A stretch of DNA of 64,000 bases from Natronomonas moolapensis 8.8.11 (lineage in GTDB: Archaea; Halobacteriota; Halobacteria; Halobacteriales; Haloarculaceae). Positions 18,593 through 64,000 of the stretch are shown piece after piece. Location: positions 1,550,001 through 1,614,000 of the forward strand of contig NC_020388.1 of NCBI RefSeq assembly GCF_000591055.1. Direction: 5' to 3'. Under the pieces are notes generated by a model. It did no database searches. It had not been told where the DNA came from and saw only the letters and a list, made by a program, of their open reading frames with translations. A program made the translations under genes and the position numbers. Every line of letters begins with the position of its first letter. The first letter of the stretch is position 1.

Positions 18593-18749
18593 ATGAACTT
18601 TGGACACAGCGGAAGCTTAGGGGTAGAACAACCGATTGATCTTACTGCCATTCTTGAAAGCGGACAAACCTTCCTATGGGAGAGAGAAAATCAAAACACA
18701 GCCGAGGAAACTCCCCCTGAAAATTCGGTATTCACCACTACAAGACTCA
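18593..18749 (+). pseudogene. N-terminal fragment of an OGG1-like DNA glycosylase
   Basis: About 52 codons from the ATG at 18593. The segment PIDLTAILESGQTFLWERE matches the conserved N-terminus (DL-x-LESGQ-x-FLW-x-RE) of archaeal 8-oxoguanine/3-methyladenine-type glycosylases, proteins of roughly 300 residues. The second IS630 copy cuts it at 18750. The catalytic helix-hairpin-helix region is not found after the element, so the gene is lost and not just interrupted. The family assignment rests on a short match. Confidence 0.5.
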
Positions 18750-19819
18750 TACTGAGGGCTAAAAATTCATGTAACTCCAGCCACGAGAAACGGTATGGCG
18801 AGGCTGGAGAAGGTCTCTGTCGAAGACCTCCGCCAGATCCTGGCGGAGGTCGATGAAGCCGACGCAGCAAAGCGGATTATGGCTGCGATTACCTACAAGG
18901 AGATCGACGATCTGACGCAGACAGACGCTGCCGAACTCTACGGATTTTCCAGTAGTTGGGCCTCAAAGTGGTTCACCCGACTCGAACGGCTCGCCGACGA
19001 GCCGTTCGAGGAGGTTGTCTATGATAAACCACGAGAAGGCAGGCCGTCCGAGCTTTCTGACAAAGAACACGACCAGTTCGTCGAGGCTCTTCACGACTCA
19101 CCCGGAGAAGTCAGATACGACGCACCCGCGTGGTCTGTTCCATTGGCGCGTCACTATCTCTCCGAGGAGTTCGGTGTTGAGTACTGCGAACGTCACGTCC
19201 GACGACTGATCTCCGAGGCCGGGCTGTCCTGGAAGACAGCCCGGCCGGAGTTCTACAAATCCGACGAGAGAGCCCAAGAAGCCTGGCAGGAAGGGTTCAA
19301 AAAAAGCGCGACAACTTGGACGATGAATACACGATCCTGACCATCGATCAGACGCGTCAGGTACTCTCGACGCTGATCTATGCGTGGTTTCCGGAAGGGG
19401 AGCGCCCGTCACTTCCGGTGACGGGCGCGTGGGATAGCATCAAGTTGCTCGGTGCAGTCAGCGATTCTAGGGAGACGTTCTTTCTGCCGTGTGCAGAGAA
19501 CTTCAACAGCGACACGACGATTCGCTTGCTAGACGCACTCCAGACAGAGTTCGGCAAGAAAATCTGCGTCATCTTGGACAACGCGTCGTATTTCACGGCT
19601 AACGCAGTCCAGGAGTTCGTCGAAGACACGCCGATCGAACTATGCTACCTTCCGCGGGGTTCACCGGAGCTGAACCCCGCGGAAGAGTGCTGGCGACAAC
19701 TCGATCAAGAACTTGGCAACCGTCTGTTCGACACACTCGACGAACTTCGTGATGCTGCGCTCTGTGCACTCAACCGGATTACCGTTCCAGATGTCTTTAC
19801 GTACTTATGTCCGTGAGTA
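18750..19819. mobile_element. IS630-type insertion sequence, copy 2
   Basis: Ends are TACTGAGGG at 18750 and, read in reverse, TACTCACGG at 19819. Unlike copy 1 there is no TA duplication. The three bases TCA occur immediately outside both ends, which may be chance. The missing remainder of the glycosylase gene agrees with a deletion or recombination at the right end after insertion. It is diverged from copy 1, so it was not produced by a recent local transposition. Confidence 0.78.
18795..19816 (+). CDS. IS630 family transposase (two frames joined by -1 shift)
   Basis: Frame 1 runs 18795-19340 with the HTH (DLTQTDAAELYGFSSSWASK) and LSWKTARPEF. Frame 2 at -1 ends at 19816 and has TILTIDQTRQ, CVILDNASYF and YLPRGSPELNPAEECW carrying the DDE residues. 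The shift point is the A7 at 19299-19305, at the same protein position as in copy 1. The product would be about 340 residues. Many codon differences from copy 1 without loss of frame argue that both were maintained by selection. Confidence 0.85.
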
Positions 19820-20091
19820 TCAACTATGATCCTGAGAGACTGCTTATCTCAATTTGGTAAGGGGGGTTGGGAAAGTTTTCTCCCACCCCCATACTCTGAA
19901 AAGCCACACAAGCCGATTAGAATTGATATGTGATTGATACCCTTCGAGACAGTATGGAATAACTCATACGGCTTGTGAGAAGGCTTAGATAGAAGTGAGG
20001 GTATATACTACACTCAGGAATCAAACCGGAATCTAATTTAAGGTATTTCTAACCGATTTTTATATTTGGTATTCATTTGTCCAATAATAAC
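19820..20091. other. AT-rich intergenic region, no gene seen
   Basis: No ORF with coding character on either strand. The bases just after IS630 copy 2 do not continue the interrupted glycosylase. AT content rises from about 20020 to 20130, leading into the candidate RNA promoter. Confidence 0.35.
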
Positions 20092-20106
20092 CGAAAGTTT
20101 TTCAAA
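20092..20106 (+). promoter_or_regulatory. Candidate BRE/TATA promoter of the structured RNA
   Basis: CGAAA at 20092-20096 followed by TTTTTCAAA at 20098-20106 resembles the haloarchaeal BRE plus TATA arrangement. With the usual spacing the start would fall near 20127, which is where the first hairpin begins. A second AT-rich block, TATAAGTATAAATT at 20115-20128, is an alternative. Confidence 0.4.
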
Positions 20107-20186
20107 CCTTAAGGTATAAGTATAAATTGATTCCGTCTTTGACGGGATCGAGTAAGCCCCAAGCCCGGACCAAGAGGAAGGGAATA

Positions 20187-20261
20187 ATGTTTCACAAATC
20201 TCATACTGATATTCTCTTTCTCACGTTCCTCAGGGGGCTTGTGCCTTTAAATCGTGCATAA
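20187..20261 (+). CDS. 24-codon micro-ORF inside the candidate RNA
   Basis: ATG at 20187 preceded by GAGGAAGGG 5-13 bases upstream, TAA at 20259-20261. The peptide has a hydrophobic middle (DILFLTFLRGLV) between polar ends. The long-range stem of the RNA would pair the region before the ribosome-binding site with bases inside this ORF. A leader peptide or small membrane peptide is possible. Chance is also possible at this length. Confidence 0.25.
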   Translation: MFHKSHTDILFLTFLRGLVPLNRA

Positions 20262-20333
20262 CCCTCGCCAACTGGGGGCCAATACAGTTGGTCAACCCAC
20301 CTACTCGGGGGTTAATACGAGTAGGGACATAGG

Positions 20334-20373
20334 CTTCCCCCGGCGGGGAAGAGAAAATAACAGTCGATTTTTT
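20334..20373 (+). terminator. GC hairpin plus T6, terminator of the candidate RNA
   Basis: Stem CTTCCCC (20334-20340) with GGGGAAG (20345-20351), loop CGGC, then an A-rich spacer and TTTTTT at 20368-20373. Archaeal termination depends mainly on the T-run; the hairpin may protect the 3' end. Confidence 0.45.
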
Positions 20374-20459
20374 CAGAGACAGATAGCGATAGCAATATTT
20401 GCCGCTTCATTCAGATAAGCATATAGAACACGGTATCTACCTACCTAATTTAGATGGTG

Positions 20460-20858
20460 TCATAGAAGAGTTCTCACACCGTGATCACTGCTTCCCGGAT
20501 TGTCTCCTCGTTCGTAGTTGGTGACTGCGACGACGAGACGCAGACACAGCGCGAGGAACACCTGCGCTCGTGCATGCAGGCAGACTCGGGCGTGCGTTCG
20601 CTCAAGGCCGCAGTCTTTCACCACGTCGTCAGTCCGTTTGACCCCATTACGGTGGCATATCCCACGACTGAAGTCGCGAGAGGAGGTCGATAGACTCAAC
20701 GAATCTGAGAATAGACGACCTACACCTGAGTCCTGAGCGACGACTCGTTGATACCAACAGTTGATACGTTTGCGGACAGAGTCGCCGCGGAGCCACGGGA
20801 GCCGAGCGGGTTCGCATTCAATTCTGTTTTGGTAGAGCGCACCGACAGATTTCCCCAC
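20460..20858 (-). pseudogene. Probable remnant of a transposase C-terminal region
   Basis: The reverse-strand frame contains RGDSVRKRI, RLFSDSLSLSTSSRDFSRGI, CHRNGV and ALCLRLVVAVTNYERGDNPG, a pattern I associate with the C-terminal part of a haloarchaeal transposase. No upstream catalytic domain is present. Degraded sequence continues to about 20950. The assignment is from memory of family patterns and is tentative. Confidence 0.35.
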
Positions 20859-20990
20859 TTACCGCTACGACTGTATTTCGCTCAAGAAGCGTTTAGAACC
20901 AGATCGCCGCCGGAACGCGGAATAAGACGGTGGCGCTGTCCGGGCTACCATGCACCCTAAGACGCTGAGTTCCCAACAAACAGTCGTGGG

Positions 20991-21503
20991 ATGTATAAGA
21001 AAGGTCACTACGGGGCTGCGCTGACGGCATATGCCCCAGTTGGGATGGGAGCGTTGGCCGTTGGGTTTGAGGTAGCCGCTGTCGGTGGTGCCATCCTTTC
21101 GGTTGGGTTAGCGATGGTGCCGGATTGGGATCAAAAGCTGCCGAATGTTCCCCACCGAGGGCCGACACATACAGTGCGGTTTGCGATCGGCGTTGCCGCC
21201 GTCGCGGGACTACTCGGTGGGGCGCTCGGACTCACTGTCACGTCACAGTGGTTCCTCGTCGCTGGAACAGGCGTATACATGGCGCTCGTGGGCGGACTCA
21301 CGATCGGCTCGCATATTGCTGCGGATGCGCTTACCCCGATGGGAGTCACACCGTTTGGCGATAACCGGCATTATTCGTACGACCTCTGGAACGCTGACAG
21401 CACGGTCGGCAATTACGTATTATTGGGGCTTGGTATACTCTCGACAGCGATTGCGCTAGTCATCGGGGCTGAATTGAACGCTCTCTTGAGCCCCTATCTG
21501 TGA
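20991..21503 (+). CDS. YdjM/DUF457-like membrane metal-dependent hydrolase
   Basis: A 170-residue protein starting MYKKGHYGAALTAYAP. Four hydrophobic segments lie around residues 12-40, 62-85, 90-115 and 140-165. The family residues are present: an early KKGHYG histidine, VPDWDQKLPNVPHRGPTHT with aspartate and histidines, and GSHIAADALTPMGVTPF with HxxxD. The layout matches the YbcI/YdjM group of membrane-bound putative metal-dependent hydrolases. Substrate unknown. Just downstream the convergent helicase gene ends. Confidence 0.85.
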   Translation: MYKKGHYGAALTAYAPVGMGALAVGFEVAAVGGAILSVGLAMVPDWDQKLPNVPHRGPTHTVRFAIGVAAVAGLLGGALGLTVTSQWFLVAGTGVYMALVGGLTIGSHIAADALTPMGVTPFGDNRHYSYDLWNADSTVGNYVLLGLGILSTAIALVIGAELNALLSPYL

Positions 21504-35442: not shown

Positions 35443-35907
35443 ATGAGCGTCGTTAGCATCTCGATGCCCGAGGCGTTAGTTGAACACATCGACGAGTTTG
35501 CCGACAAGCATGGGTACAGTGGACGGAGCGAGGTCGTACGCGAAGGGGCACGGACGCTGCTCGAAGAGTTCCAGGGAGGAGCTGTTGACGGGCAGAAACA
35601 TATGTGTACAGTCACGGTAGTCTTCGAATACTGCCAACCCGCTGTCCAACAGCGTCTCACGGGAGTACGCCACGAGTACGATACTATCGTCTCTGCGACT
35701 ACCCATGCTCACGTTCAGGACCAGTACTGCATGGAACTGTACGTCCTGGAGGGGACCACGGAGGCCCTATCCGGATTCATCAACACCGTCCGGGCAGTGC
35801 CGAATGTCCGAGTAGTGGATTACTCGATCGCCTCATTAGGAGAGGACACCGTTCACAAACACATCAGAATATCGGTACTTCCCAACCGGTGTGAGCGGCG
35901 GAGCTAG
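35443..35907 (+). CDS. NikR-type metal-responsive regulator (C-terminus altered by ISH3 element)
   Basis: Ribbon-helix-helix domain (residues 1-45, MSVVSISMPEALVEHIDEFA) and an ACT-like metal-binding domain. Counterparts of the E. coli NikR ligands are present: histidine in VRHEYD and H-x-H-x5-C in THAHVQDQYC. So nickel or a similar metal should bind. The ORF is extended at its end: the IS inserted at the stop codon. Before insertion the protein would have ended HKHIRI. Now about ten residues (ISVLPNRCERRS) come from the element. It is divergent from the COG0523 operon, which it may regulate. Confidence 0.87.
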   Translation: MSVVSISMPEALVEHIDEFADKHGYSGRSEVVREGARTLLEEFQGGAVDGQKHMCTVTVVFEYCQPAVQQRLTGVRHEYDTIVSATTHAHVQDQYCMELYVLEGTTEALSGFINTVRAVPNVRVVDYSIASLGEDTVHKHIRISVLPNRCERRS

Positions 35908-37312
35908 ATCACCGGTCTGATTGAGGAAGACGTCTGGTTGGGTAAGTGTGCTTGATCTCCCCGAACCAGACGGTGTTCTTTCAGCAAGGGACGTCAAAGA
36001 AGTGGCGGCTGATGTAATCACAGAGCTTCCTCTGCCAGGAATCGAGGGCTCGCCCCTCGATTCCGGCGATATCTGGCCGGTCGTTACCATGGCCAGCGTC
36101 AACCAGACGTCCGTCTGGGACGTGACCTCCCAGACGGACGGTACCCCCTGTGACGACACCGTCATGACCTGGTTGCACACCCTCCAGCGTGGTTGGCTCG
36201 AGTTCAGTGCCAATCTCCTGTTTCGGCACCTCGCCCTGACGATTCTCGACCCTGACCGGTCGAGAATCGTCTCCATCGACTTCGTCGATAACCCCTATCA
36301 CGGCCACCCCGACGAGGACGACGGCGAACTCTGCTCGTCCAGTCCCACCGACGGCACGACGACCTGCCACCGCTACTGCACCGCCTACGTCGTCTCGAAC
36401 GGCAAACCCGTGACGCTGGCGCTGACCTACGTCCGCAGCGACGAGCAGGAAGCCGACGCGGTCGAGCGCGTCCTCGACCGCGTCGGCGCCTACCCATTCG
36501 CCATCGACCTGCTGCTGGCTGATCGAGGCTTCTACAACGGGCGCGTCATCCGTCGTGGACGGGAGCTGGCAACCACCGTGATCCCTGTCCAGGAGAAGGG
36601 TGAGCGGATGAAAGAGAAACTCGACACGCACTGCTCGTACATGACGACCTACCGGATGTTCAAGGACAGCGAGCGGGAACTCCGGTTCCCGCTCGCAGTT
36701 TCGGTCTCGTATCACAACGGTGACCGAGGGAAACACGGGGAGGTGGTGCGGGGGTACGTGGCGTGCGATCTGGCCGATCGCACGCCCACGCAGATCGAGC
36801 GTCGCTACCGGAAACGATCGGCGATCGAGACGAGCTATCGGCTGTTTCGCCAGGCGCGAGCGACGACGACAACCCAAGATCCACTCGTTCGATTTGCGTT
36901 CGTCCTGGTGAGTTTCTTGTTGGAGAATATCTGGTTAGTGCTGCGATGGGCGGTCGTCGCCCGCCCCCGGCGGGGCGGGCGCGACCTGCCAACGCAGTTC
37001 ACGTTCGGTACCTTCTGTGACTGGATCAGGCACGTACTGGAACAGGAGTTGGAGCGTCGGTGGGAGATAGAGATGAACAGAACTGGCGTCCCGGACGCAT
37101 ACGGATCGGCCGCGGGCTGAACGCTCAGCCCGCGGCCTCGGGGTGCCCGCTGTGAGCGGCAGCTCTCAGTTGAGACGTCGACATCGTTCGACACAGCTCA
37201 TCTCGGCACCTCAGAACTCGTTCAGCGTGAAGTCACCTCAAGAACACGGCGGTGATCGCTGGAGAGACTCACCGATCCAGCGACCCGCCGAAACATCGAT
37301 TGGGAAGTACCG
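35873..37312. mobile_element. ISH3-type insertion sequence, 1,440 bp
   Basis: Ends CGGTACTTCCCAACCG at 35873 and, read in reverse, CGGTACTTCCCAATCG ending at 37312. Five-base direct repeats AATAT flank it at 35868-35872 and 37313-37317, as is usual for the ISH3 family. Joining the flanks restores the original stop codon TGA of the NikR-type gene. Confidence 0.87.
35948..37120 (+). CDS. ISH3 family transposase
   Basis: About 390 residues from the GTG at 35948 (a TTG at 35921 would add nine). SIDFVDNPYHGHPDED, LLADRGFYNG and the YRKRSAIETSYRLFRQARA segment supply the D, D and Y-(2)-R-(3)-E catalytic residues of this IS4-superfamily group. Length agrees with ISH3 enzymes (about 389). The element looks complete. 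Confidence 0.88.
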   Translation: MLDLPEPDGVLSARDVKEVAADVITELPLPGIEGSPLDSGDIWPVVTMASVNQTSVWDVTSQTDGTPCDDTVMTWLHTLQRGWLEFSANLLFRHLALTILDPDRSRIVSIDFVDNPYHGHPDEDDGELCSSSPTDGTTTCHRYCTAYVVSNGKPVTLALTYVRSDEQEADAVERVLDRVGAYPFAIDLLLADRGFYNGRVIRRGRELATTVIPVQEKGERMKEKLDTHCSYMTTYRMFKDSERELRFPLAVSVSYHNGDRGKHGEVVRGYVACDLADRTPTQIERRYRKRSAIETSYRLFRQARATTTTQDPLVRFAFVLVSFLLENIWLVLRWAVVARPRRGGRDLPTQFTFGTFCDWIRHVLEQELERRWEIEMNRTGVPDAYGSAAG

Positions 37313-37378
37313 AATATGATCTAGATTTGTTATCAATATAATAATCTTGATTAACATAAACGTGTTGAATACGGGTGG

Positions 37379-51987: not shown

Positions 51988-54900
51988 TCACTCGGTACGG
52001 CGCCACCACAGACCGAGTGCCAGCAATACCAGGAGTAGTATCGTCACGGCGAGCAGCGGTGAACTGCCATCGATAGCCCCTGCCGAAGGCGTATCGCCGT
52101 TCATTGGAGTTGGACTCGGCGTGGCCTCCTCGGCGTCTTCAATACTGAGTGTTTCGAGATCACTCCCTCCCACAGTGAGATCGTACTTGCCGGGCTCCCC
52201 ACCATCGAATGATAGCGTTACATCCTTTGAGTCACCGCTCTCAACGACGACAGTCTCAGTATCGACAACTGCACCACCGACCGTGAGATTGACAGTCGTC
52301 TCTCCCGCAGTCAGTCCGCGGTTGGTGACGGTTGCGGTGGCTGTCACCGTCTCTCCGGTTTCGATTTTCGTCTTAGCGAGGCGGCTATTAGTTACGTCCA
52401 GTTGAGGGGCGTCAGTATCAATCACGAACATCGAGAATTTGGACGTTGTTCTCTTGAAGTGGTGGTACCTCTCACCACTGTTACGGTACGCAGTGGCACG
52501 CTCCTCCCACTTGCCGTCGGAAAGCCGGTGATAGAGCGTTATGTCTTCGGGTTCAACGCTTAACTCGTGGAGATATGACCTTCGAATACTAAATTCGATG
52601 GACCCGTTGGTGACTTGCTCAGGAGCGAGCGTGGTGTTGATTTTCAGGTAGCCTGCCGAGATGGTTCCCATTTGGCTCTCGAATGACTGCGCGGCCGTCC
52701 GGACATCGTTGGAGACACCCCTCGTCTCAGCTTGGGCAGATGCCGTGTCACCCCTCAGTATCGACGCACTTGGCGTCAGGTCGTGCTTGTATGCTGTCAC
52801 CGACAGCTCAAAGTTGCGGTCGGTGTCAATATCGACGGTCAACTGGTTTATTCTGAAGTTGTTCGGTGCGAACTCGGTCCTGCCGCCAGCGCTGGCTCTG
52901 TCGATAGAGTCACTGGCCGCTGTCGCCCCTTGATCAACGATTACGGCCCCAGTCCTGTTGATAACAAGTGTCTGGCCCGGTCGGGGGTTCTCTACCGAGA
53001 TCGTGATAGGCGGCCGCGGTTCGACGCGCCCCGTGTCAGTCTCACCAGTTGTGGCTCTCCCATCCTTGTCATCAGGTTGCTGAACTCCCGTGGCGCCAAT
53101 GGATACCGATGTACGGCTTCCTACGGTCTCTCCGTCTCTATCCGGTGGTGTCCCACTCTCTCCGCCGGAGGGTGTATTTTCGGGGCCTTCTGGCGAGGCA
53201 GTGGGTGCCTGAGAAACTGACACTGTCTTTCTCTTTTCGCCGATTTCTTCGCCGGTTTCATCATTTATAAATGTTACTGTTATATTGACTGTGCCAGCCG
53301 AATCGGTCGCGGTGCTTTCCAGACCCGAGACCGTCTGAGTAGCACCCGCAGCCAGCGCTTGTGTCGAACTATCGTGCTGGGTCCCATCCACCTCCAGTTC
53401 GACCACGGCATCGCCAGAGTGACCGCCAACATTTGTGACCGTTGCGTCTGCTGTGATTGACTCGCCGACTGAGACCTCCGCTGGTATGTTCACTGTGTCA
53501 AGCGTGGGGTTGAATGATTTGATGCTCACTGTGCTCGTCGAAAACGTTGTAAACGTTGTTTCGAAAATTAATGATGTCCCGCGATCAGCGACGAGCGTCG
53601 TGTTTTGCGTTTCGAATTCTGCGTTCTGGTGACTGTGGAACACACCTACAGAATTCTCGACGTCCGTCTGGTTGGTGATATCCACACCAGCCTCGTCAAG
53701 TGTGGCTTTCGTGACTCGGAACTCGAGGGTTCCTTTGGTGAAATTTGCCGCCGATAAACTCGACTTAGTTTCAAAAATCCGTACCGTGTCGAATTTTGAG
53801 TCGAATTTCGAGCGGTCATATTCAGCGAATCCAGCAGCTAATGCCGTCGATTCGTTTTCGGCCGTCACGTCTGTGAACTTGACGGAGATATCTCCATCGC
53901 GAGCAGCAGTCAGGTTAAACGAGTCAAACGCTCCGTCTCGCTCGATTCCATCGTACACATCGGTCTTTGGCAAACTTCCGTCATCGGTATTAAAGTAGTC
54001 AATTAGCACGCTACCGAACTTGACGACGACGTACGTTTCCGAGTTGGTGAGGCTGATGATTTTCGACGGCTGTCGTGGATCGTTCGTCTCCAGACGGAGC
54101 GAAGCCGATCGCCTCACCGGCTCAGACGGAGTGAATGCAACCGCAATCTCGACAGATTCGCCTGGTTTGAGTGACTTTTCTGCAATTGCGTCACGGTTCA
54201 CAATCTCAAAGTCCGTAGGATCCTCTCCTCCAAGCGTCGTGTCTTCAAGCGTGATGGGTGCTGTCGCATTCGGCGTATTTCTCACCGTGATATTGCGCGT
54301 GACTCGTTTTCCAAGCGGGACTTCGCCGAATTGCATTACATCAGGGGCGGTGAAATCTGGCGTCACGCCCATCGCGTCGACAGCAACTGTGTGAGTCGTG
54401 GCATCCACATCAGTTGTAATCACAAGCATCAACGAAGAGTTGTTCCCGTTGAGTGCCTCGTCATCGTCAGTTGGTGCAAACACCAGCGGTGCCGAAATGG
54501 TGTCTCCGCCAGCTACTGTCTTACCCTCGAGATTCGCAGTGAGGTTCTGTCCGAACTGATTTATGTCACCAGTGACCGAAACCGACTCAATCGTGTATGG
54601 TCTGTTGCCGTTGTTACCGAGTGTAACGAATCGCTCTGAGCGGTGTCCCACCCGTGTGTCTGCAAACTGTACTTTATCTGATATATCTGGTTCAGCTTCA
54701 ACACTAGTCACCCGGAGGGTGATTGTCCGGTCGGTCCCGTCACTGAAACTCACGCCCATGACAGCAGTAAGGTCGCCCGCAATAGTCGGTGTCGCCGTGA
54801 CTGACTCTGTTCGGGTCGTGTCAGCCTCAATGATTGTGCCGGTCTCGAGACTTGTCTCGAAGAAGTTAGCGTCGGTGCCAGCGATGACAACGTCAGTCAC

Positions 54901-57900
54901 CGTAGTGTTCACAGCACCATCGTTGTGGATGCTGAATGAAGCAGTCTTGCTGTTCCCGTGTTCAACCTGCTTGAACTCAACAAAATCACGCGAGACTGTG
55001 ACGTCGGCGTTAATCCCCTTCCCACTCAGATCAAACGTCAGGTGTTCCACGTTGTCGTCGTTTGTCGTCGGGAACACGAGTCTCGCTGTTGCAGTCCCTG
55101 TAGTCTCTGGAGTAAATCTAACCCTGTATCGGAGTGACTCGCCGGGCCCGATCGTAGTGACTCCCTTGGTCGGCCCCGTCGAAAGTGTAAACACATCGGT
55201 GCTGTCGGCCCTGATCTCAGGGGCCGCAATTATCAGCGGCGCGTCACCAGTGTTTGCGACACGGACGCTCTTGCTAGCAGTGCTTCCCACAGGCGTCTCT
55301 CCGATAGTAATCTCGCTTGTATTCGTCGGAGTGACCGACAGTGCTGGGGTCACTCCCGTCACGGTTAGAGGCACAGCATTATCCGCGATAGCTGTCCCGT
55401 TCGTGTGGGTGAGTCCGAACGGGTCATCTGTCTGAATTTTGAGGGCGGCAGCAAGGGGTCCCGTCCGACTGGGGGTAACTTCGACAGTGATTTGTCGCTC
55501 GCTGCCCGGGGCAAGTATCCGACCATCATGGGAGCGGGTAAGGCTGACAACACCGGCATCAGGACCTTCTATCGAGACGGCCTCTATCGTGAGCACATCG
55601 TTCCCGTCATTTGCCAGCGTCACGGACGCCTCGGTCGAGTCTCCGATGGGAATCTTTCTGCTCGATATATTTTCACTCCTGATAACGGCCTCGGGTGCGC
55701 GACTCTCAGCACTGACCGGCAGTCGCACTGTCGGTGACTCGGGGTCACTCGTGTTGATCACGAGCTCCGTGCTGAAAATACCGGTCTGAGAATCCTTGGG
55801 GGCGAACCTGACCGCTACATCGGCGCGCTCACCACTAGCAAGGTTGGTTCCGGTGGGTGCCGTCGCGATTTCAAACGGTGTGGATGGGTCAGCGAGGCGC
55901 ACATTCTCGATTGTGAGTGTCGTTCCTCGAGTGCCGTTGTTTATAATGCCAACCCTGTGTGTTGTGGGTTCGCTGACAACGCTGACCGGTCCGAAGGCAA
56001 TCGTATCGCGAGTGAGTTCGAGCTCAGGGGGCGTGGAATCTCCCACGAGCGGTACTGTCGTGGTTGTCGTCTGCCCATTCTCATTCGTGCCAGTAAACGT
56101 CACTAAAGCCGTCTTCTCGCCAAGAGTAGTCGGTTCGAAGCGGATAGTGACCGGCTGACGCTGCGCGCTCGCAAGTGAGACGTTCGTCAGGTCCGTCTCA
56201 ACTGTGAACTGCTCTGGACTGTCACCAAGCATAGTCGCAGTCAGATTACTGATAGCTGACTGGCCGTCGTTAGTGAGACTAACAGTCCGCGTCGCGCGTG
56301 TCCCATTGCCAACAGCGTTGAACTCAGGGGCTGACGGCACGGCTGTGAGGTTCGACGTGATGCCGGTACCGGTGACCGCTATTGTTGTCATGCCAGCTGG
56401 AAGTGTTGGATCGTTCGTTTGCAGGATCAGGTCACCGGTGAGCGGCGTAGCAGCATCAGGCGCAAATTGGAGGCGGACGGCTGTGGTTTCGCCTGGTGCA
56501 AGCTGCTGATGCCCTGTGTCCAAGATGGTCACCCACCGCTGCTCAGAGGAATTGAAACCGGCAGAAGTGTTCACCGCAAGCGTGGCGTTGCCCGTGTTCT
56601 TAATCTGAACTGCGGCAGTGGTTGCTCCGCCGACTGCCGTGTCGTCGAGGGTGATGCTATCGGTGACAGCCGCCGACGGCGCTGTTGCGGTCATTGTGAC
56701 GTTTATGACAGCTGGTGAGGGCAATTCGTCCGCGGTTATTTCGAGTGTGGCCGACTGCTCGCCGAGTGTTGTCTGGTTGGCGATAGCAGTAATGCCGACG
56801 AATTTTCCTGAATCACTCGGTGAGAGGGTCCCAAAATCCCCATCGGAAGCGAGTTTGAACGCTTTGGTGTCAGAGGCAAAAGCCACTGTCAGATTCGACA
56901 GTGGGACATTGCCGGTATTCTGGAGGTAGAGGCGTCTTTCGGTGATCTGCTCACGGGATACGTTGCCGGTCGTATCCGGTGGGACGATCGAGAGGTTGCC
57001 AAACGCGATGCTATCCGGTTGCGTGAATAGTCTGGGTTCTTTGACCACCGCCCGGAGTGGAACGCTTACTGTGTCAGTCTCTGGGTCGCTCGACGATATC
57101 GTGAGACTATCTGTCACCGTGCCACCGGTCTCAGGCACGGTGTAGGTGAGCGAGATGGTTCGGGAGTTCCCCGCAGCTATCGTCAGTGGCACAGTCGTGT
57201 CAATTTCGAAGCTGTCGCCCGAGCCAAGGCTAAGATTGGTGACTTCAAGAGCCGCGTTGCCGTCATTTGTAATAATAATGTCCTTAGACATAGTAGAGCC
57301 TGCTTGGTCCGGCGTACTCCTGCCGAAATCTAGGGAGTCTGCCGGGGCCACGTTGATGAGGGGAGATTCGGAAGCACCACGGAGTGTGATTGTCTGTGTC
57401 GGCGTATCGGGGTCCGTAGTATTGATTGTGAGATTTGCAGTCAGGTCACCCCCGCGCGTACTCGGATCGAATGTGACTGTCAGAGCTTCCGTTGTGCCGG
57501 GGGCGACATCACCTGCTGGCTCACTTATATTAAATTGCCTCGCAGCGTTGTCCCTGAGTTCGGCTTCTGTCCGAAGGGTTACATTGCCTATGTTCTGGAT
57601 TTTGATTGTCTGTGCTGCCGTTTCGGTGAGGCGAAGAGTGCCGAAATCAAGGACGTCGGGAAGGCCAGTAGTGTTGACTCTCGGGGTGGCATCCGTGAGC
57701 GTCACGACCGAAACGTCGGCAGTAGCCGTGTCACGACCAGTCGTAATCTCAAGCGTGTAAACGCCGGCCTGTTCAGCAGTTGGATTCCACGAAAACGTCT
57801 CTTGAGATGTTTCGTTTGGCCCAAGAGTAACCAATGTCTGCTGGGTGTGATTCCCGACAGAGAAGGTGAGCGGTTGTGTACCGGCCGTCTGCCCAACATT

Positions 57901-60900
57901 CTTTACTTTGGTCGTGACGACCAGCGAGTTCGCGGTGAGAATTGGTGAATTCGTCTCAATCGCCGAAATAACAACGAACGAATCGGTGGGCGCGCTGACC
58001 GGGATAATCTTCGTTGCATTGTTTTCACTGCCCTCGATAGTGATCGTGAGGTCATCTGTGGTAGACGGATCCGTCCCGATCTGGAACTCAACTGTGGCGG
58101 TCTCGTTTGGAGCAAGGTTAGCACTGGCAGTCGCACGTTGAGTACCGTTCACAAACAAGGTGAGTGGTTCCAGTATGGCGACTGGACCGGAATTCGTAAC
58201 GTTCACCGCAACCGTGGCGGTGTTCCCAGCAATAAGGCTCTGGTTGGTTCGAGTAGTATCGATTTCGAGACTACCATTCGCAGCAACCGTCACCACGACC
58301 GTGTCCGTATCGGTATTCCCGCCGTCGTCGGAGACAGTCAACGCCACGGTGTAGATGCCTGGTCGAGAGTAGGTGTGGGTTGGTGTCGGGCCAGTGGTAT
58401 TCGTACCGTCGCCGAATCGCCACTCGTATGTCGTGATATTGACGTTGTCGGTCGAGTCGGTCCCATCGAATTGGACGCTCCTTCCCTTCTCGACGGTGCG
58501 ATTGTCACCGGCGTCGGCGCTCGGAGCAGTGGTGTCTTCGACGGTGACAGTCAATGTGTCCGTGGCAGTGTTATTGTTCCTGTCGGTGACTGTCAGTGTC
58601 ACTGTGTACGTGCCCGGCTGAACATATGTGTACACAGGTGACGGGCCAGAAGCCGTTGCGCCGTCACCAAATTCCCACGAGTAGCCCGTGATATTGAGGT
58701 TGTCTGTCGAGTTGGTTCCGTCAAAATATACGGTCACTCCCTCATCGACGGTCTGAGAACTTCCAGCCTCGGCGATTGGAGCCGTCGTATCTACGGTGAC
58801 ACTGTCGGAGTCACCGCTCGCCCCGTCGTTGCCGTCTGCGTCTTCGGCGGTGTCCAGCGTGGCGGTGTAGCGACCATCACTCGAACCGTCGTAGGTAGCC
58901 TCGTACGTGTAGGTATCGTTGCCATTATCGGTCTCGGAGAAGTCGCCGGCTGAGAGCGTGGCAGATTCGACGCCACTCACCGAGACAGCGATCGTAGCGA
59001 GTTGTTCATCCGTGGTGAAGCGTACCTGTACATTCCGTCCGGACGGGTTCGAAACGCTAAATGAGGATACCGTCGGTGCAGTGGTGTCCACAGTGATGCT
59101 GTCTGACTCTCCATTGGCGCCATCATTGGCGCTGCTGTCTTCGGCTGTCTGGAGTGTCGCGGTGTAGTCGCCGTCACTCGAGCCGGTGAACATCGCGGTA
59201 TATGTGTAGGTGCCGTCATGGTTGTCACCCTCGATGAAATCCGATCGAGTGAGTATCGTAGACTCGGCACCACTGATTGATATGTTAATTATCGAGAGTT
59301 GTTCATCGCTCTCGAACGAGATCGACACGTTCTGTTTCGACGGGTTGCTGACGTTGAACGACGCTGTCGTCGGTGCGACACCGTCCATATCAAAGATTGT
59401 TCTCCTGCCTGAAGTGAGCGAATTGCCACTGGTATCGTTGATATTCCCGGTAATCGATATGTTGACACTGTTAGTGTCGACTGGAGAACTGAGGTCAATA
59501 TCCACAGCCGCGCCTGTTTCAGTTTCGCGGGGCGTAACCGATGCAATTGAACCGCTGCTCAAGGAAAAATCACTCGCGTCGATAGATGTCTCGTCGACAT
59601 CGACTCCGTCTGTGAAAGTGACCTGTATCGTGGTGTCGTCAATCTTCGACGTATCGTTCAGTGTGGGCGCGACGCCGTCCATGCTCGAGGCGCTGGCCGA
59701 CCCACTGGTCTGTGCGTTGCCATTCTTGTCATCGATTCCGTCGGATTGCAGACTGACAGAGACACTGTCGGCGTCGATGGGCGACTCGAGATGGATAATG
59801 ACTGTCTGCGTACCGGGTGCCCCGTCAGTGACACCGCTCGTGTCGATTTCGCTGATCGATCCCGAACTGAGGATGAAGTCTCCGGGGTCGATGCTTGCCT
59901 TGTCGATGCCACTACCGCCGTCTGAGATGTCGACCCTGATAGTAGTGGTGTCGACGCTTGATGCACGATCCAACGTTGGCGCGACGCCGTCTATATCCGA
60001 GACGGTTTGGGTGCCCGCTGTGAGTGAATTTCCGTTGATATCTTCGATGCTGCCGACAATCGAGACGTCGACCGTGTCGGCGTCGATCTTGGATGCAAGC
60101 TTGAGTGTGACACTCGTGTTCGACTCACTCTCAGCGGGCGTGATGTAGGAAATCGAGCCTGTATTCAGCGAGAAATCACTCGAATCGATAGTTTTTTCGT
60201 CAATATCGACCCCGTCTGTGAGTGTAACCTGAATGGTCGTGTCGTCGATCTTCGAAGCCCCATCGAGCGTTGGTGCGACACCGTCCATTCCTGAGACGCT
60301 GGTCGACCCACTGCTCAGTGTGTTTCCATTCTTGTCATCGATTCCGTCCGAATAGAGGCCTACCGAAAGAGTGCTCGTATCGACCGGAGCGTCGAGATTG
60401 AGTGTCACTGTCTGCGTGCCGGTCGCACCGTCGGAGACGCCGCTTGTGTCGATTGAACTGATAGTGCCGGTGCTAAGAGTGAAGTCGCTCTGGTCGATGC
60501 TAGCCTTGTCGATGCCGCTGCCGCCGTCGAAAATGTTGACCTCGACCGTGGTTGCGTCCACCTTTGATGCATCCGCAAGCGTCGGCGCAACACTGTCCAT
60601 TCTAAACGCGCTCACCGACCCGTTGATCTGAGTGTTGCCGTTCAAGTCCTCGATGCCGTCTGGTTGCAGACTGATAGCGACCGTGTCGTCGTCGACGGCA
60701 GAATCCAAATTGATGATGACTGTCTGGGTGCCGGTGTCTCCGTCGGAGAGACTGGCTTTTTCGATGCTGGAGATCGTCCCAGAATCCAGCGAAAAGTCAC
60801 CCTGCTCGATGGACGAAACATCGAATCCTGCGTTTCTCTCTGAAAGGGCGATTTCGATGGTTGTGTCGTCGATTTTTGTCGCATCCACGAGGGTCGGTGC

Positions 60901-63900
60901 CGTGTTGTCGATGGTGTAGCTCTCGCCGCTGGTGAAACTGCCGTCACCATAGCTATCAGTGTGGCCGACTCCACCGAGTTCGACGTCGGTGTTGTCGCTC
61001 GTAATTGTGCCGTCGTCGGTAAGGGTGAGGCCGAGCGATCCATCACCGCTGACAGAATCGACAGTGACAGTAATCGTGTCCACTCCACTCCGTGGACCGA
61101 AACTCTGGATGTTCCCGCTGGCGGTGCCGGTGAGGGCGAAGTCGCCGTCGTCCACGCCGGAGACGAGTTCCGAAAAGCTCACATCGAACTTGGCGGTGTC
61201 CGCGTTCGTGTTCTGATTTGTCGGTGAGGCGCGCGTGATAGACGTGACTTCGGGAGCATCGTCGACGGAGATACCCACCGTGGTTGTATTGCTCGAAAAA
61301 GCGGTTGTCCCGCCGTGTGAGCCTGCGTCGGCACCGCTGTCTCCTGCCGATCCACTCGACTGATCCCACGCACGTACCGTGAGCGACCCGCCAGCACTGC
61401 CCGAGAAATCGGCACCGGGAACGAACCGAACGAGGTCGTTGTCAGCCAGCAGGAGTGCGCTGCTGCCCGAAGGCGAAGCCGAGGCAACTGTGTTCCAAGA
61501 ACTCCCGCCATCGGTAGAGTACTCCCAGCTGCCGTCGGTGTCGTCGACGCTGATGACGGCCATTCCCAGCGTGTCGCCTTCGGCGTCGCCCGTACTGCCA
61601 GCCGAAGACAGAATCGTGCTGACCTGCGTGCCGCTGTTGGCGGCTGCGTCCTCGTCGATGTTGCTGAGCGAGCGCGCGTCTGTGGAGAGCGTCGGCGCGT
61701 CGTTGGCGCTCGAGATAGACACGTTACTCGACGTCGAAAACGTAGCCGTATCGTCACCGCCGTTGGTGGCCCCACCGTCGTCGGTGAGTTTTGTAATCGT
61801 GATTCGCCGGTTTAGGGCGATAGTCGGGTCATCGCCGGTGTGCTCGTACGCGAGGGTATCTATGATCGTGTTCGCGGTCGTCTCGCTGACCGACCCACCA
61901 TCGACCGTGACCGTGGCAGTGGTCTCTGAGACTTCGACGCTGACATCGAGTCCATTGTTGCTCGTTGTCAGGACAGTGTCGTCAGTCAGGGCCGCGCTGC
62001 TGCCATCGACGATCAGTTTCTCTGCCGAGCCGTCGATGACGTTGCTCACGGTGAGTTCGATACGCTCAATTTGCTGGCCGTCTTCAACGACATCCACGTT
62101 TGGCGGTGAAAAGACCTCGACAGAGTTCCCGTCTTCAGTGAACGTTGGGTCGGTTGGCGACACTGAAAGCCTCGGCGCGTCGTTGACGCTGTCGATGGTG
62201 ACTTGAAACGTGTTTCCGGCCACGGTGTTTGTGCCATCTGTCAAGTCGAACTCGAACGTATCAGTGCTGGCCTCCGAACCGCCGTGGCTGTACAGGAGGT
62301 TACCGGCATCTATGTCTGCCTGCGTGAACGTTCTTGTGCCGATGGCAGATTCACCGTCCTGCGTGCCGTCGTCGGTCCCGCCGGAACTCCCGTCGATGAA
62401 CAGCGTGCCGTCCGAGGGAGCGGTAGCCACGTCATAAGTAATCGACTCGGCCGACTGTTCGAGGTCGCTGGCGGCCAGAGTCGCGTTCGCGATTTGGTTT
62501 TCCTTCGACCCCTCGTCGACGGTCATACCCGCGTTCGTGTCCAGTGTCGGCGCTTCGTTCACATTGATGATCGACACCGTCACCGTCTGGGTGTTCGTGT
62601 TTCCGACATCGTCCGTGGCCGTCACGATGAGTTCATATTCGTTGTCGGTGTTTGCGTCCGATGGAGTCTCGTAGTCCAGCGCGCTGTCGAGAGATATCTG
62701 GCCCGTGTTGCTGTCGATACTGAAGCTACTGGCATCGGTACCGGCGGCGCTGGAGAGACTGTAGTCGGACACTTCCGACCCCGGCGTGCCGTCGTCGCCG
62801 GCATCGATGTTCAGGAAGTTGTTCGCTGTGCTTTCTTCGCTGATTGACGCGGTGTTACTGCTGCCGGCACTAAATCCTGGCTTGGTGTTGTCGATAGTGT
62901 AGCTCTCGCCGCTGGTGAAGCTACCGTCAGCGCTACCACTAGTGCCTATACCCCCTAAGGCGACGTTGTTGGCCGTGTCTCGTATTGTGCCGTCGTCAGT
63001 CACGTCCAGCCGGAGCTCGCCGTCACCTGAAACCGAGGCGACTGTGACCGTGATTGTATTGCTGGCGGAGGTTGGCCCAAAGCCCTGGATAGTACCATTG
63101 GCGTCCCCACTAAGCGTAAAGTCACTCTCGTCCACCCCACTCACCCCAGTGCTGAAGGTAACATCGAAATCGACGCTGTCTGCGTTGGTGACCTGATTCG
63201 TCGGCGAGGCGCGCGTGATCGACGACACTTCTGGCGCGTCATTGACACTAACCCAAAGTGTCGCTGTGTCTGTGCCACCGTTGCCGTCACTCACTTCGTA
63301 GGTGATACTGACATCACTGCTCTGGTCGGCACCCGGGTCAAACCGAATCTGGCCGTTACTTGGCCCAGTTATTTGCGCAGAGCCGTGGGACGGACCGTTG
63401 ATGATACTGGTTACAGCCAGAGAATCTCCGTTCGGATCGGTATCATTATTGACGACATCGACAGTGACACGAGAATCTTCATCGGCGCTTGCCGAGTCAT
63501 CACGCGCTGTCGGTGGATCGTTTGGCACCTCAATCTGTCCGGTCCCCGAGTCCGACGACCCACTGGACGGCGTCCCGGTTAGCGTCACGTCGTAGTCACC
63601 GGGGCTGTCCGACCCCGGTGGCACCACCGAATCTGGCGGATCCACAGTTATCGTCACTTGCTCCGTGGCACCGGCACTAATCGTCCTCTCGGCGGGTGTC
63701 GTAATACCCCAACCGCTGGGCCCACTCGTGGTGAAACTCGCGGTCGTATCTGCAGTTCCGGTATTCTGAACGTCGAAGGTGAGGTCTACGGTGTCACCGC
63801 TGAGTGTCTGCTTACTAGGGGGCGTCACAACGAGTGACGACAGCGTGAACGACTCGCGGGCGTTGACTGTCCAACTATCCCCATCAGCAAGCGCGCTCAT

Positions 63901-64000
63901 CCGCCACTCCATCGCGTAGCCGTTGTCGTGGGAACTCGTGTCGACATTCTCGGTTAGCTCGCCGTTGGCTATGCTACTCCTAATACTGCTATACTTGTCG
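51988..64000 (-). CDS. Giant multi-domain cell-surface protein (5' end beyond window)
   Basis: At least 4,003 codons. The frame is open beyond the first ATG at 63912 to the right edge (DKYSSIRSSIANGEL and on), so the start lies outside. Domain order from the visible N-terminus, residues counted from 63912: CARDB-like (1-125); cadherin/Ig-type modules, one with a DYETPSDANTDNEYELIVTA cadherin core (130-1010); about seven 80-residue repeats of the form APTLDGASKIDDTTIQVTLT (1010-1510); two SNPS-TDEQL modules (to 1680); two PKD domains (1690-1870); CARDB-like (1880-2060); more than ten HYDIN/ASH-type repeats with FG-x4-N-x-G patterns (2070-3270); a beta-rich domain; CARDB; a PGF-pre-PGF-like domain (3600-3800); CARDB; a P/T-rich linker; a C-terminal membrane helix LLAVTILLLVLLALGLWW and RRTE. 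A cell-anchored adhesin or S-layer-associated protein. Confidence 0.9.
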   Translation of the reverse strand, partial: DKYSSIRSSIANGELTENVDTSSHDNGYAMEWRMSALADGDSWTVNARESFTLSSLVVTPPSKQTLSGDTVDLTFDVQNTGTADTTASFTTSGPSGWGITTPAERTISAGATEQVTITVDPPDSVVPPGSDSPGDYDVTLTGTPSSGSSDSGTGQIEVPNDPPTARDDSASADEDSRVTVDVVNNDTDPNGDSLAVTSIINGPSHGSAQITGPSNGQIRFDPGADQSSDVSITYEVSDGNGGTDTATLWVSVNDAPEVSSITRASPTNQVTNADSVDFDVTFSTGVSGVDESDFTLSGDANGTIQGFGPTSASNTITVTVASVSGDGELRLDVTDDGTIRDTANNVALGGIGTSGSADGSFTSGESYTIDNTKPGFSAGSSNTASISEESTANNFLNIDAGDDGTPGSEVSDYSLSSAAGTDASSFSIDSNTGQISLDSALDYETPSDANTDNEYELIVTATDDVGNTNTQTVTVSIINVNEAPTLDTNAGMTVDEGSKENQIANATLAASDLEQSAESITYDVATAPSDGTLFIDGSSGGTDDGTQDGESAIGTRTFTQADIDAGNLLYSHGGSEASTDTFEFDLTDGTNTVAGNTFQVTIDSVNDAPRLSVSPTDPTFTEDGNSVEVFSPPNVDVVEDGQQIERIELTVSNVIDGSAEKLIVDGSSAALTDDTVLTTSNNGLDVSVEVSETTATVTVDGGSVSETTANTIIDTLAYEHTGDDPTIALNRRITITKLTDDGGATNGGDDTATFSTSSNVSISSANDAPTLSTDARSLSNIDEDAAANSGTQVSTILSSAGSTGDAEGDTLGMAVISVDDTDGSWEYSTDGGSSWNTVASASPSGSSALLLADNDLVRFVPGADFSGSAGGSLTVRAWDQSSGSAGDSGADAGSHGGTTAFSSNTTTVGISVDDAPEVTSITRASPTNQNTNADTAKFDVSFSELVSGVDDGDFALTGTASGNIQSFGPRSGVDTITVTVDSVSGDGSLGLTLTDDGTITSDNTDVELGGVGHTDSYGDGSFTSGESYTIDNTAPTLVDATKIDDTTIEIALSERNAGFDVSSIEQGDFSLDSGTISSIEKASLSDGDTGTQTVIINLDSAVDDDTVAISLQPDGIEDLNGNTQINGSVSAFRMDSVAPTLADASKVDATTVEVNIFDGGSGIDKASIDQSDFTLSTGTISSIDTSGVSDGATGTQTVTLNLDAPVDTSTLSVGLYSDGIDDKNGNTLSSGSTSVSGMDGVAPTLDGASKIDDTTIQVTLTDGVDIDEKTIDSSDFSLNTGSISYITPAESESNTSVTLKLASKIDADTVDVSIVGSIEDINGNSLTAGTQTVSDIDGVAPTLDRASSVDTTTIRVDISDGGSGIDKASIDPGDFILSSGSISEIDTSGVTDGAPGTQTVIIHLESPIDADSVSVSLQSDGIDDKNGNAQTSGSASASSMDGVAPTLNDTSKIDDTTIQVTFTDGVDVDETSIDASDFSLSSGSIASVTPRETETGAAVDIDLSSPVDTNSVNISITGNINDTSGNSLTSGRRTIFDMDGVAPTTASFNVSNPSKQNVSISFESDEQLSIINISISGAESTILTRSDFIEGDNHDGTYTYTAMFTGSSDGDYTATLQTAEDSSANDGANGESDSITVDTTAPTVSSFSVSNPSGRNVQVRFTTDEQLATIAVSVSGVESATLSAGDFSETDNGNDTYTYEATYDGSSDGRYTATLDTAEDADGNDGASGDSDSVTVDTTAPIAEAGSSQTVDEGVTVYFDGTNSTDNLNITGYSWEFGDGATASGPSPVYTYVQPGTYTVTLTVTDRNNNTATDTLTVTVEDTTAPSADAGDNRTVEKGRSVQFDGTDSTDNVNITTYEWRFGDGTNTTGPTPTHTYSRPGIYTVALTVSDDGGNTDTDTVVVTVAANGSLEIDTTRTNQSLIAGNTATVAVNVTNSGPVAILEPLTLFVNGTQRATASANLAPNETATVEFQIGTDPSTTDDLTITIEGSENNATKIIPVSAPTDSFVVISAIETNSPILTANSLVVTTKVKNVGQTAGTQPLTFSVGNHTQQTLVTLGPNETSQETFSWNPTAEQAGVYTLEITTGRDTATADVSVVTLTDATPRVNTTGLPDVLDFGTLRLTETAAQTIKIQNIGNVTLRTEAELRDNAARQFNISEPAGDVAPGTTEALTVTFDPSTRGGDLTANLTINTTDPDTPTQTITLRGASESPLINVAPADSLDFGRSTPDQAGSTMSKDIIITNDGNAALEVTNLSLGSGDSFEIDTTVPLTIAAGNSRTISLTYTVPETGGTVTDSLTISSSDPETDTVSVPLRAVVKEPRLFTQPDSIAFGNLSIVPPDTTGNVSREQITERRLYLQNTGNVPLSNLTVAFASDTKAFKLASDGDFGTLSPSDSGKFVGITAIANQTTLGEQSATLEITADELPSPAVINVTMTATAPSAAVTDSITLDDTAVGGATTAAVQIKNTGNATLAVNTSAGFNSSEQRWVTILDTGHQQLAPGETTAVRLQFAPDAATPLTGDLILQTNDPTLPAGMTTIAVTGTGITSNLTAVPSAPEFNAVGNGTRATRTVSLTNDGQSAISNLTATMLGDSPEQFTVETDLTNVSLASAQRQPVTIRFEPTTLGEKTALVTFTGTNENGQTTTTTVPLVGDSTPPELELTRDTIAFGPVSVVSEPTTHRVGIINNGTRGTTLTIENVRLADPSTPFEIATAPTGTNLASGERADVAVRFAPKDSQTGIFSTELVINTSDPESPTVRLPVSAESRAPEAVIRSENISSRKIPIGDSTEASVTLANDGNDVLTIEAVSIEGPDAGVVSLTRSHDGRILAPGSERQITVEVTPSRTGPLAAALKIQTDDPFGLTHTNGTAIADNAVPLTVTGVTPALSVTPTNTSEITIGETPVGSTASKSVRVANTGDAPLIIAAPEIRADSTDVFTLSTGPTKGVTTIGPGESLRYRVRFTPETTGTATARLVFPTTNDDNVEHLTFDLSGKGINADVTVSRDFVEFKQVEHGNSKTASFSIHNDGAVNTTVTDVVIAGTDANFFETSLETGTIIEADTTRTESVTATPTIAGDLTAVMGVSFSDGTDRTITLRVTSVEAEPDISDKVQFADTRVGHRSERFVTLGNNGNRPYTIESVSVTGDINQFGQNLTANLEGKTVAGGDTISAPLVFAPTDDDEALNGNNSSLMLVITTDVDATTHTVAVDAMGVTPDFTAPDVMQFGEVPLGKRVTRNITVRNTPNATAPITLEDTTLGGEDPTDFEIVNRDAIAEKSLKPGESVEIAVAFTPSEPVRRSASLRLETNDPRQPSKIISLTNSETYVVVKFGSVLIDYFNTDDGSLPKTDVYDGIERDGAFDSFNLTAARDGDISVKFTDVTAENESTALAAGFAEYDRSKFDSKFDTVRIFETKSSLSAANFTKGTLEFRVTKATLDEAGVDITNQTDVENSVGVFHSHQNAEFETQNTTLVADRGTSLIFETTFTTFSTSTVSIKSFNPTLDTVNIPAEVSVGESITADATVTNVGGHSGDAVVELEVDGTQHDSSTQALAAGATQTVSGLESTATDSAGTVNITVTFINDETGEEIGEKRKTVSVSQAPTASPEGPENTPSGGESGTPPDRDGETVGSRTSVSIGATGVQQPDDKDGRATTGETDTGRVEPRPPITISVENPRPGQTLVINRTGAVIVDQGATAASDSIDRASAGGRTEFAPNNFRINQLTVDIDTDRNFELSVTAYKHDLTPSASILRGDTASAQAETRGVSNDVRTAAQSFESQMGTISAGYLKINTTLAPEQVTNGSIEFSIRRSYLHELSVEPEDITLYHRLSDGKWEERATAYRNSGERYHHFKRTTSKFSMFVIDTDAPQLDVTNSRLAKTKIETGETVTATATVTNRGLTAGETTVNLTVGGAVVDTETVVVESGDSKDVTLSFDGGEPGKYDLTVGGSDLETLSIEDAEEATPSPTPMNGDTPSAGAIDGSSPLLAVTILLLVLLALGLWWRRTE

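Follow-up and report, generated by a model that had tools for sequence, protein, structure and literature searches.

The window analysed here, a 64-kb stretch of DNA from a genome resembling that of a salt-loving archaeon, contains one element of about 240 letters whose RNA fold is unusually good on one of the two strands. The explanation that we tentatively favour is a small structured RNA confined to one lineage, in which tandem pseudoknots would act as binding modules, a function that we infer. Such an RNA of about 240 nt, either horizontally moving or fast-evolving, would be transcribed from the + strand, from approximately 20127 to approximately 20370. Its 3' half carries a ~34-nt unit twice in tandem. 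Each copy could form a hairpin, and pairing of AACCC with the loop G's would turn this hairpin into an H-type pseudoknot whose remaining loop strand, AATA, is A-rich. The most likely role of each unit would be to bind a protein, with a ligand or an mRNA as less likely partners, and having two units would provide avidity. The flanking helices and a rod-like alternative fold would contribute stability or a second state. The features of the locus are summarized in Table 1.

Strand-specific fold and tandem units

The analysis of folding energies showed that the region 20120-20380 reached -96.6 kcal/mol on the + strand (z -5.35, with 0/200 shuffles as good), and that the z value on the - strand was -1.58. 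For the 236-nt core, the difference between strands was -3.47, while 107 control windows of equal length gave a mean of 0.06 (sd 1.21, minimum -3.17); the + strand bias was also seen with 120-nt windows. The z value alone is not special because several other places in the window, mostly at transposase genes, fold equally well or better; what is special is the strand bias. Very strong folds (z ~-6) were observed at 35900-36135 and 37080-37315, at both ends of the transposase gene 35921-37120. The strand bias points to RNA rather than to a DNA palindrome, from which a fold excess confined to one strand is not expected. Rfam 15 gave no match at gathering score in the window, and relaxing the threshold to E 10 brought up just two matches within 19800-20600, both at chance level. 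The preliminary description of this locus as a structured + strand RNA candidate without a known family was supported in this respect. The element is a fair candidate RNA for a single sequence, and a real sequence oddity.

The two perfect hairpins of the preliminary description, with equal-length, near-identical loops and ACCC before each, were found as described at 20260-20325. Both loops of H1 and H2 read GGGGYYAATA, and AACCC stands ahead of each hairpin (20260-20264 and 20294-20298). The same description had called the stems unrelated and had taken different stems around a conserved loop as an argument for selection on RNA shape. That argument is not supported, since the stems align with a one-base gap as CC[A/T]ACT[-/C]G and its complement. 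On the basis of this alignment, the units are diverged tandem duplicates of about 34 nt; their start-to-start spacing is 34 nt when taken from AACCC and 33 nt when taken from the loops. The copies differ in one A-T to T-A pair swap and one added C-G pair, and both stems are still perfect. The window has 91 perfect hairpins with stems of 7 bp or longer; among them this was the only pair of neighbours with alike loops, and a neighbouring perfect-hairpin pair with loops at least 80% alike was obtained in 0/60 dinucleotide shuffles of the whole 64 kb. In a simple simulation, the chance of a perfect 7-bp stem surviving one substitution and one deletion per arm was ~1%, which is modest evidence; a template-switch mutation at quasi-palindromes could also produce this result. 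The only compensatory evidence is that between the two copies inside one locus.

The remaining components that had been described, namely the 9-bp hairpin, the AAGCCCC/GGGGCTT pairing, the GC hairpin, and the T6 run, are all present in the sequence. The 9-bp hairpin was confirmed at 20129-20149 with one G-U pair; in the folding model, the 5' hairpin and the 13-bp hairpin are nearly certain. For the AAGCCCC long-range helix, alternative pairings with GGCTT at 20332-20336 were noted. The proposal that the T6 run completes the unit was borne out as regards its presence, but the run begins 17 nt past the GC hairpin and the terminator scan found nothing. The BRE/TATA-like element proposed upstream would correspond to CCGAAAG at 20091-20097 and the T/A-rich sequence after it, a possible promoter judged by sequence. 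A 44-codon frame (20127-20261, inner ATG at 20187) stops at a TAA just ahead of unit 1, and no protein family was recognised in the small frames at the locus. The position of this frame and the alternative folds would suit a 5' leader or attenuator of a now displaced gene. We regard this explanation as highly unlikely: the frame is not conserved, and no recognisable + strand gene follows downstream until 20991, 0.6 kb off and beyond the IS-like repeat.

Table 1. Coordinates and composition of the features at the candidate RNA locus (window positions)
Feature	Position	Strand	Sequence or basis
Candidate structured RNA	20127-20375	+	Fold z on + versus -; strand difference outside 107 controls
Possible archaeal promoter	20091-20125	+	CCGAAAG (20091-20097), then T/A-rich GTATAAGTATAA; from sequence only
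5' hairpin	20127-20151	+	TTGATTCCGTC-TTT-GACGGGATCGA; inner 9 pairs probability ~1
Long-range helix	20154-20241	+	AAGCCCC 20154-20160 / GGGGCTT 20234-20240; in MFE of transcripts ending 20255-20330
13-bp hairpin	20174-20222	+	GAGGAAGGGAATA/TATTCTCTTTCTC, two G-U pairs; pair probabilities 0.85-1.0
Alternative fold, one ~40-bp rod	20233-20338	+	Same nucleotides as H1/H2, excludes both; MFE helices and growing-transcript folds
Repeat unit 1	20260-20291	+	AACCC-TCG-CCAACTG-GGGGCCAATA-CAGTTGG; possible pseudoknot CCCT/GGGG
Hairpin H1	20268-20291	+	CCAACTG 20268-20274, loop GGGGCCAATA 20275-20284, CAGTTGG 20285-20291; perfect stem
Repeat unit 2	20294-20325	+	AACCC-A-CCTACTCG-GGGGTTAATA-CGAGTAGG; possible pseudoknot AACCC/GGGTT
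Hairpin H2	20300-20325	+	CCTACTCG 20300-20307, loop GGGGTTAATA 20308-20317, CGAGTAGG 20318-20325; perfect stem
GC hairpin	20334-20351	+	CTTCCCC-CGGC-GGGGAAG; pair probability ~0.7
T6 run, possible archaeal termination signal	20368-20373	+	Sequence
Second structured element, orphan segment	19901-19987	+	AAGCC-A-CACAAGCCG ... CGGCTTGTG-AGAA-GGCTT
Orphan A+T-rich segment, 629 bp	19824-20452	.	Flanked by IS630 copy and repeated IS-like remnant; segment itself without homologue
IS630 copy	~18745-19823		Boundaries set from two other near-identical copies in own genome
IS-like repeat/remnant	20453-20655		Matches in many genomes

Predicted competition between the rod and the possible pseudoknots

The preliminary description had also suggested two pseudoknots between ACCC and the loop G's. 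The required complementarity was found in both units (5 bp, AACCC/GGGTT, in unit 2; 4 bp, CCCT/GGGG, in unit 1), but when pseudoknots are left out of the model the favoured fold is a rod in which neither H1 nor H2 can exist. The predicted pseudoknot loops of 1-2, 0-1, and 4-6 nt would suit the H-type, L1 being short and L3 rich in A; a pseudoknot option of 4-5 bp was present in 4/27 other comparable perfect hairpins of the window. In the rod, GGGGGCTTGTG...TAACCCTCG...TGGG-GGCCAAT pairs with GTTGGTC-CCCA...CGGGGGTTA...CATAGGCTTCC. Because the long rod competes with them, H1 and H2 both have a probability of ~0 when the full RNA is modelled as an ensemble without pseudoknots. Between 20244 and 20331, the rod and the H1+H2 state were calculated at -33.2 and -24.7 kcal/mol, respectively, under a model without pseudoknots.

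These values raise the alternative that the RNA really folds into a single long rod hairpin and that H1/H2 with ACCC and GGGG are a quasi-palindrome by-product, or that the element is a bistable switch. The MFE of the full RNA contains the rod, as does the ensemble, and the MFE of the growing transcript has H1 first and shifts to the rod once 20315 is made. However, the energy model lacks pseudoknots, which could add several kcal/mol to H1+H2 (S1 stacks), and the perfection of both the 7- and 8-bp stems is not required by a rod. We consider this alternative rather unlikely. According to a rough estimate from stack energies, the double pseudoknot may be about as stable as the rod, and the duplication of a pseudoknot unit in itself yields a rod as a domain swap. 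A more specific proposal is that of an archaeal tandem H-type pseudoknot RNA that binds a protein, acts as an orphan antitoxin or decoy (sponge) outside any known family, and can switch to the 40-bp rod; this we hold to be improbable.

Genomic surroundings and search for relatives

The candidate RNA lies in the orphan segment between the IS630 copy and the IS-like repeat. The latter, about 200 bp long, is shared by many genomes of the order, has one further copy in the genome under study, and is probably an IS remnant or a MITE. On the other side, the start of a frame at 18593-18744, adjoining IS630, is weakly similar to 8-oxoguanine DNA glycosylase (Pfam OGG_N, E 0.0036, below the cut-off); this frame was apparently interrupted by the IS630 insertion. 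Synteny with relatives ends at ~21543, and conserved sequence restarts with a helicase from ~21543 onward; the RNA was absent from the syntenic region of the relatives with the helicase orthologue that were inspected. The orphan segment also carries the second structured element, with a double stem (AAGCC...CAAGCC/GGCTTG...GGCTT) resembling that of the main RNA and likewise orphan; the fold of 19895-19995 had z values of -4.36 on the + strand and -2.91 on the - strand. Elsewhere in the window, a tyrosine integrase is encoded at 598-1872, which together with many transposases suggests that the left third is an integrated element, and a frame of 3974 aa at 51988-63912 on the - strand encodes a giant protein.

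The segment is situated among insertion sequences and may be debris, and the neighbouring IS630 and IS-like repeat as well as the nearby synteny break are consistent with mobile-element debris, or with its DNA palindromes forming recombination or replication hairpins rather than RNA. This origin nevertheless seems quite unlikely to us, given that the element is a single copy in the genome, that its fold excess occurs on one strand only, and that searches of plasmids, phages, and viral contigs returned nothing beyond one 39-nt chance match in phage MT836065.

Searches with blastn against its own genome and 146 genomes of the family returned the locus itself only. Covariance models were run for the whole RNA on 392 genomes of the order, for the 3' half on those of the genus and on 146 of the family, and for the single unit on 40 genomes; each gave matches at chance level only. 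These included the matches in genomes G116, G125, G127, G132, G133, and G090 and the matches of the R3 model in G120 and G159. One further candidate, G119:C1:2828521 (covariance model E 0.056 per genome), combines ATAACCC with a partly covarying intergenic hairpin; it was rejected because it retains the first hairpin alone, its gene neighbourhood is a different one, and a score of this size is what chance yields over 145 genomes. In pattern scans of the 392 genomes, viral_contigs, and genome_contigs, a second locus with two perfect stems around the loops was not found among the loci read. The loop-pair pattern matched 115 stretches of genome_contigs, with no haloarchaeon among the 80 of 115 listed. 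The covarying haloarchaeal family anticipated in the preliminary description thus did not emerge from blastn, covariance models, or patterns. The outcome named there as refuting the proposal, namely no homologues with compensatory stem changes, is so far the result in the genomes searched, and the idea of a conserved RNA family lacks support. Intergenic sRNAs from hypersaline communities usually have no relatives: 44 of 613 were conserved by blastn (PMC7002113).

Taken as a whole, the lineage-specific structured RNA is favoured by the strand-specific fold, the tandem units unique in the window, the pseudoknot option of both units, the empty Rfam result, and the small frames devoid of protein families. 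Against it stand the absence of a homologue, and hence of phylogenetic covariation, the predicted rod, the IS neighbourhood, and the template-switch route to the compensatory changes. If transcribed, the element would join a small number of structured RNAs in Archaea that have tandem pseudoknot units, and its two-state fold could be put to the test; so far it is a single-sequence candidate, the value of which hangs on transcript data and a second example.

Comparison with known systems

Guanidine-II and tandem preQ1-I riboswitches are built of tandem hairpins or tandem pseudoknots. The element shares with them two adjacent units with the same loop, whereas it has no Rfam match and no regulated gene downstream. 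A reading as IS200/IS605 omega RNA was rejected, as no tnpB lies upstream, and a retron was set aside because no reverse transcriptase was found among the window proteins scanned, which represent part of the frames. In size, intergenic position, and poor conservation, the element resembles haloarchaeal intergenic sRNAs, such as the ones described for Haloferax volcanii and for the halite community; unlike them, it is strongly structured with a tandem repeat and is a candidate predicted from sequence.

The type III antitoxin RNAs (CptI, ToxI, and TenpI) have in common with the element tandem short repeats that could each adopt an H-type pseudoknot, a very short L1, an A-rich loop strand, and a hairpin afterwards. 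CptI goes back to a tandem pair of 45-nt repeats, which fold into H-type pseudoknots whose L1 is a single base, and the ToxI repeats are 36 nt long (PMC4627078). The two ~34-nt units agree with the ~35-45 nt expected of type III antitoxin repeats, although they are slightly below the 36 nt of ToxI and the 45 nt of CptI. Complementarity for one H-type pseudoknot per repeat exists in both units, while the pseudoknot-free fold prefers the rod. The differences are that the element has no toxin gene, that its repeat length and sequence are other, and that its pseudoknots are predicted only.

The locus could be imagined as what is left of a CptIN/ToxIN-like toxin-antitoxin system of type III whose toxin gene was removed by insertion sequences. 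The two ~34-nt units, the L1 of 1-2 nt, the A-rich loop strand, and the GC hairpin that follows recall CptI/ToxI (PMC4627078), and type III loci have been reported in Archaea (PMC5086642). No toxin frame follows the RNA, however, and the IS-like repeat begins ~80 nt later; we find such an origin unlikely. As for the downstream endoribonuclease of type III systems, no toxin family was found in the frames at 20254-21168; a PF13958 search of 60 genomes was empty, as were its controls, and is uninformative either way. The element is not filed as a type III antitoxin because the defining adjacent toxin gene was looked for and was absent; by analogy, the type III antitoxin is nonetheless its nearest working analogue.
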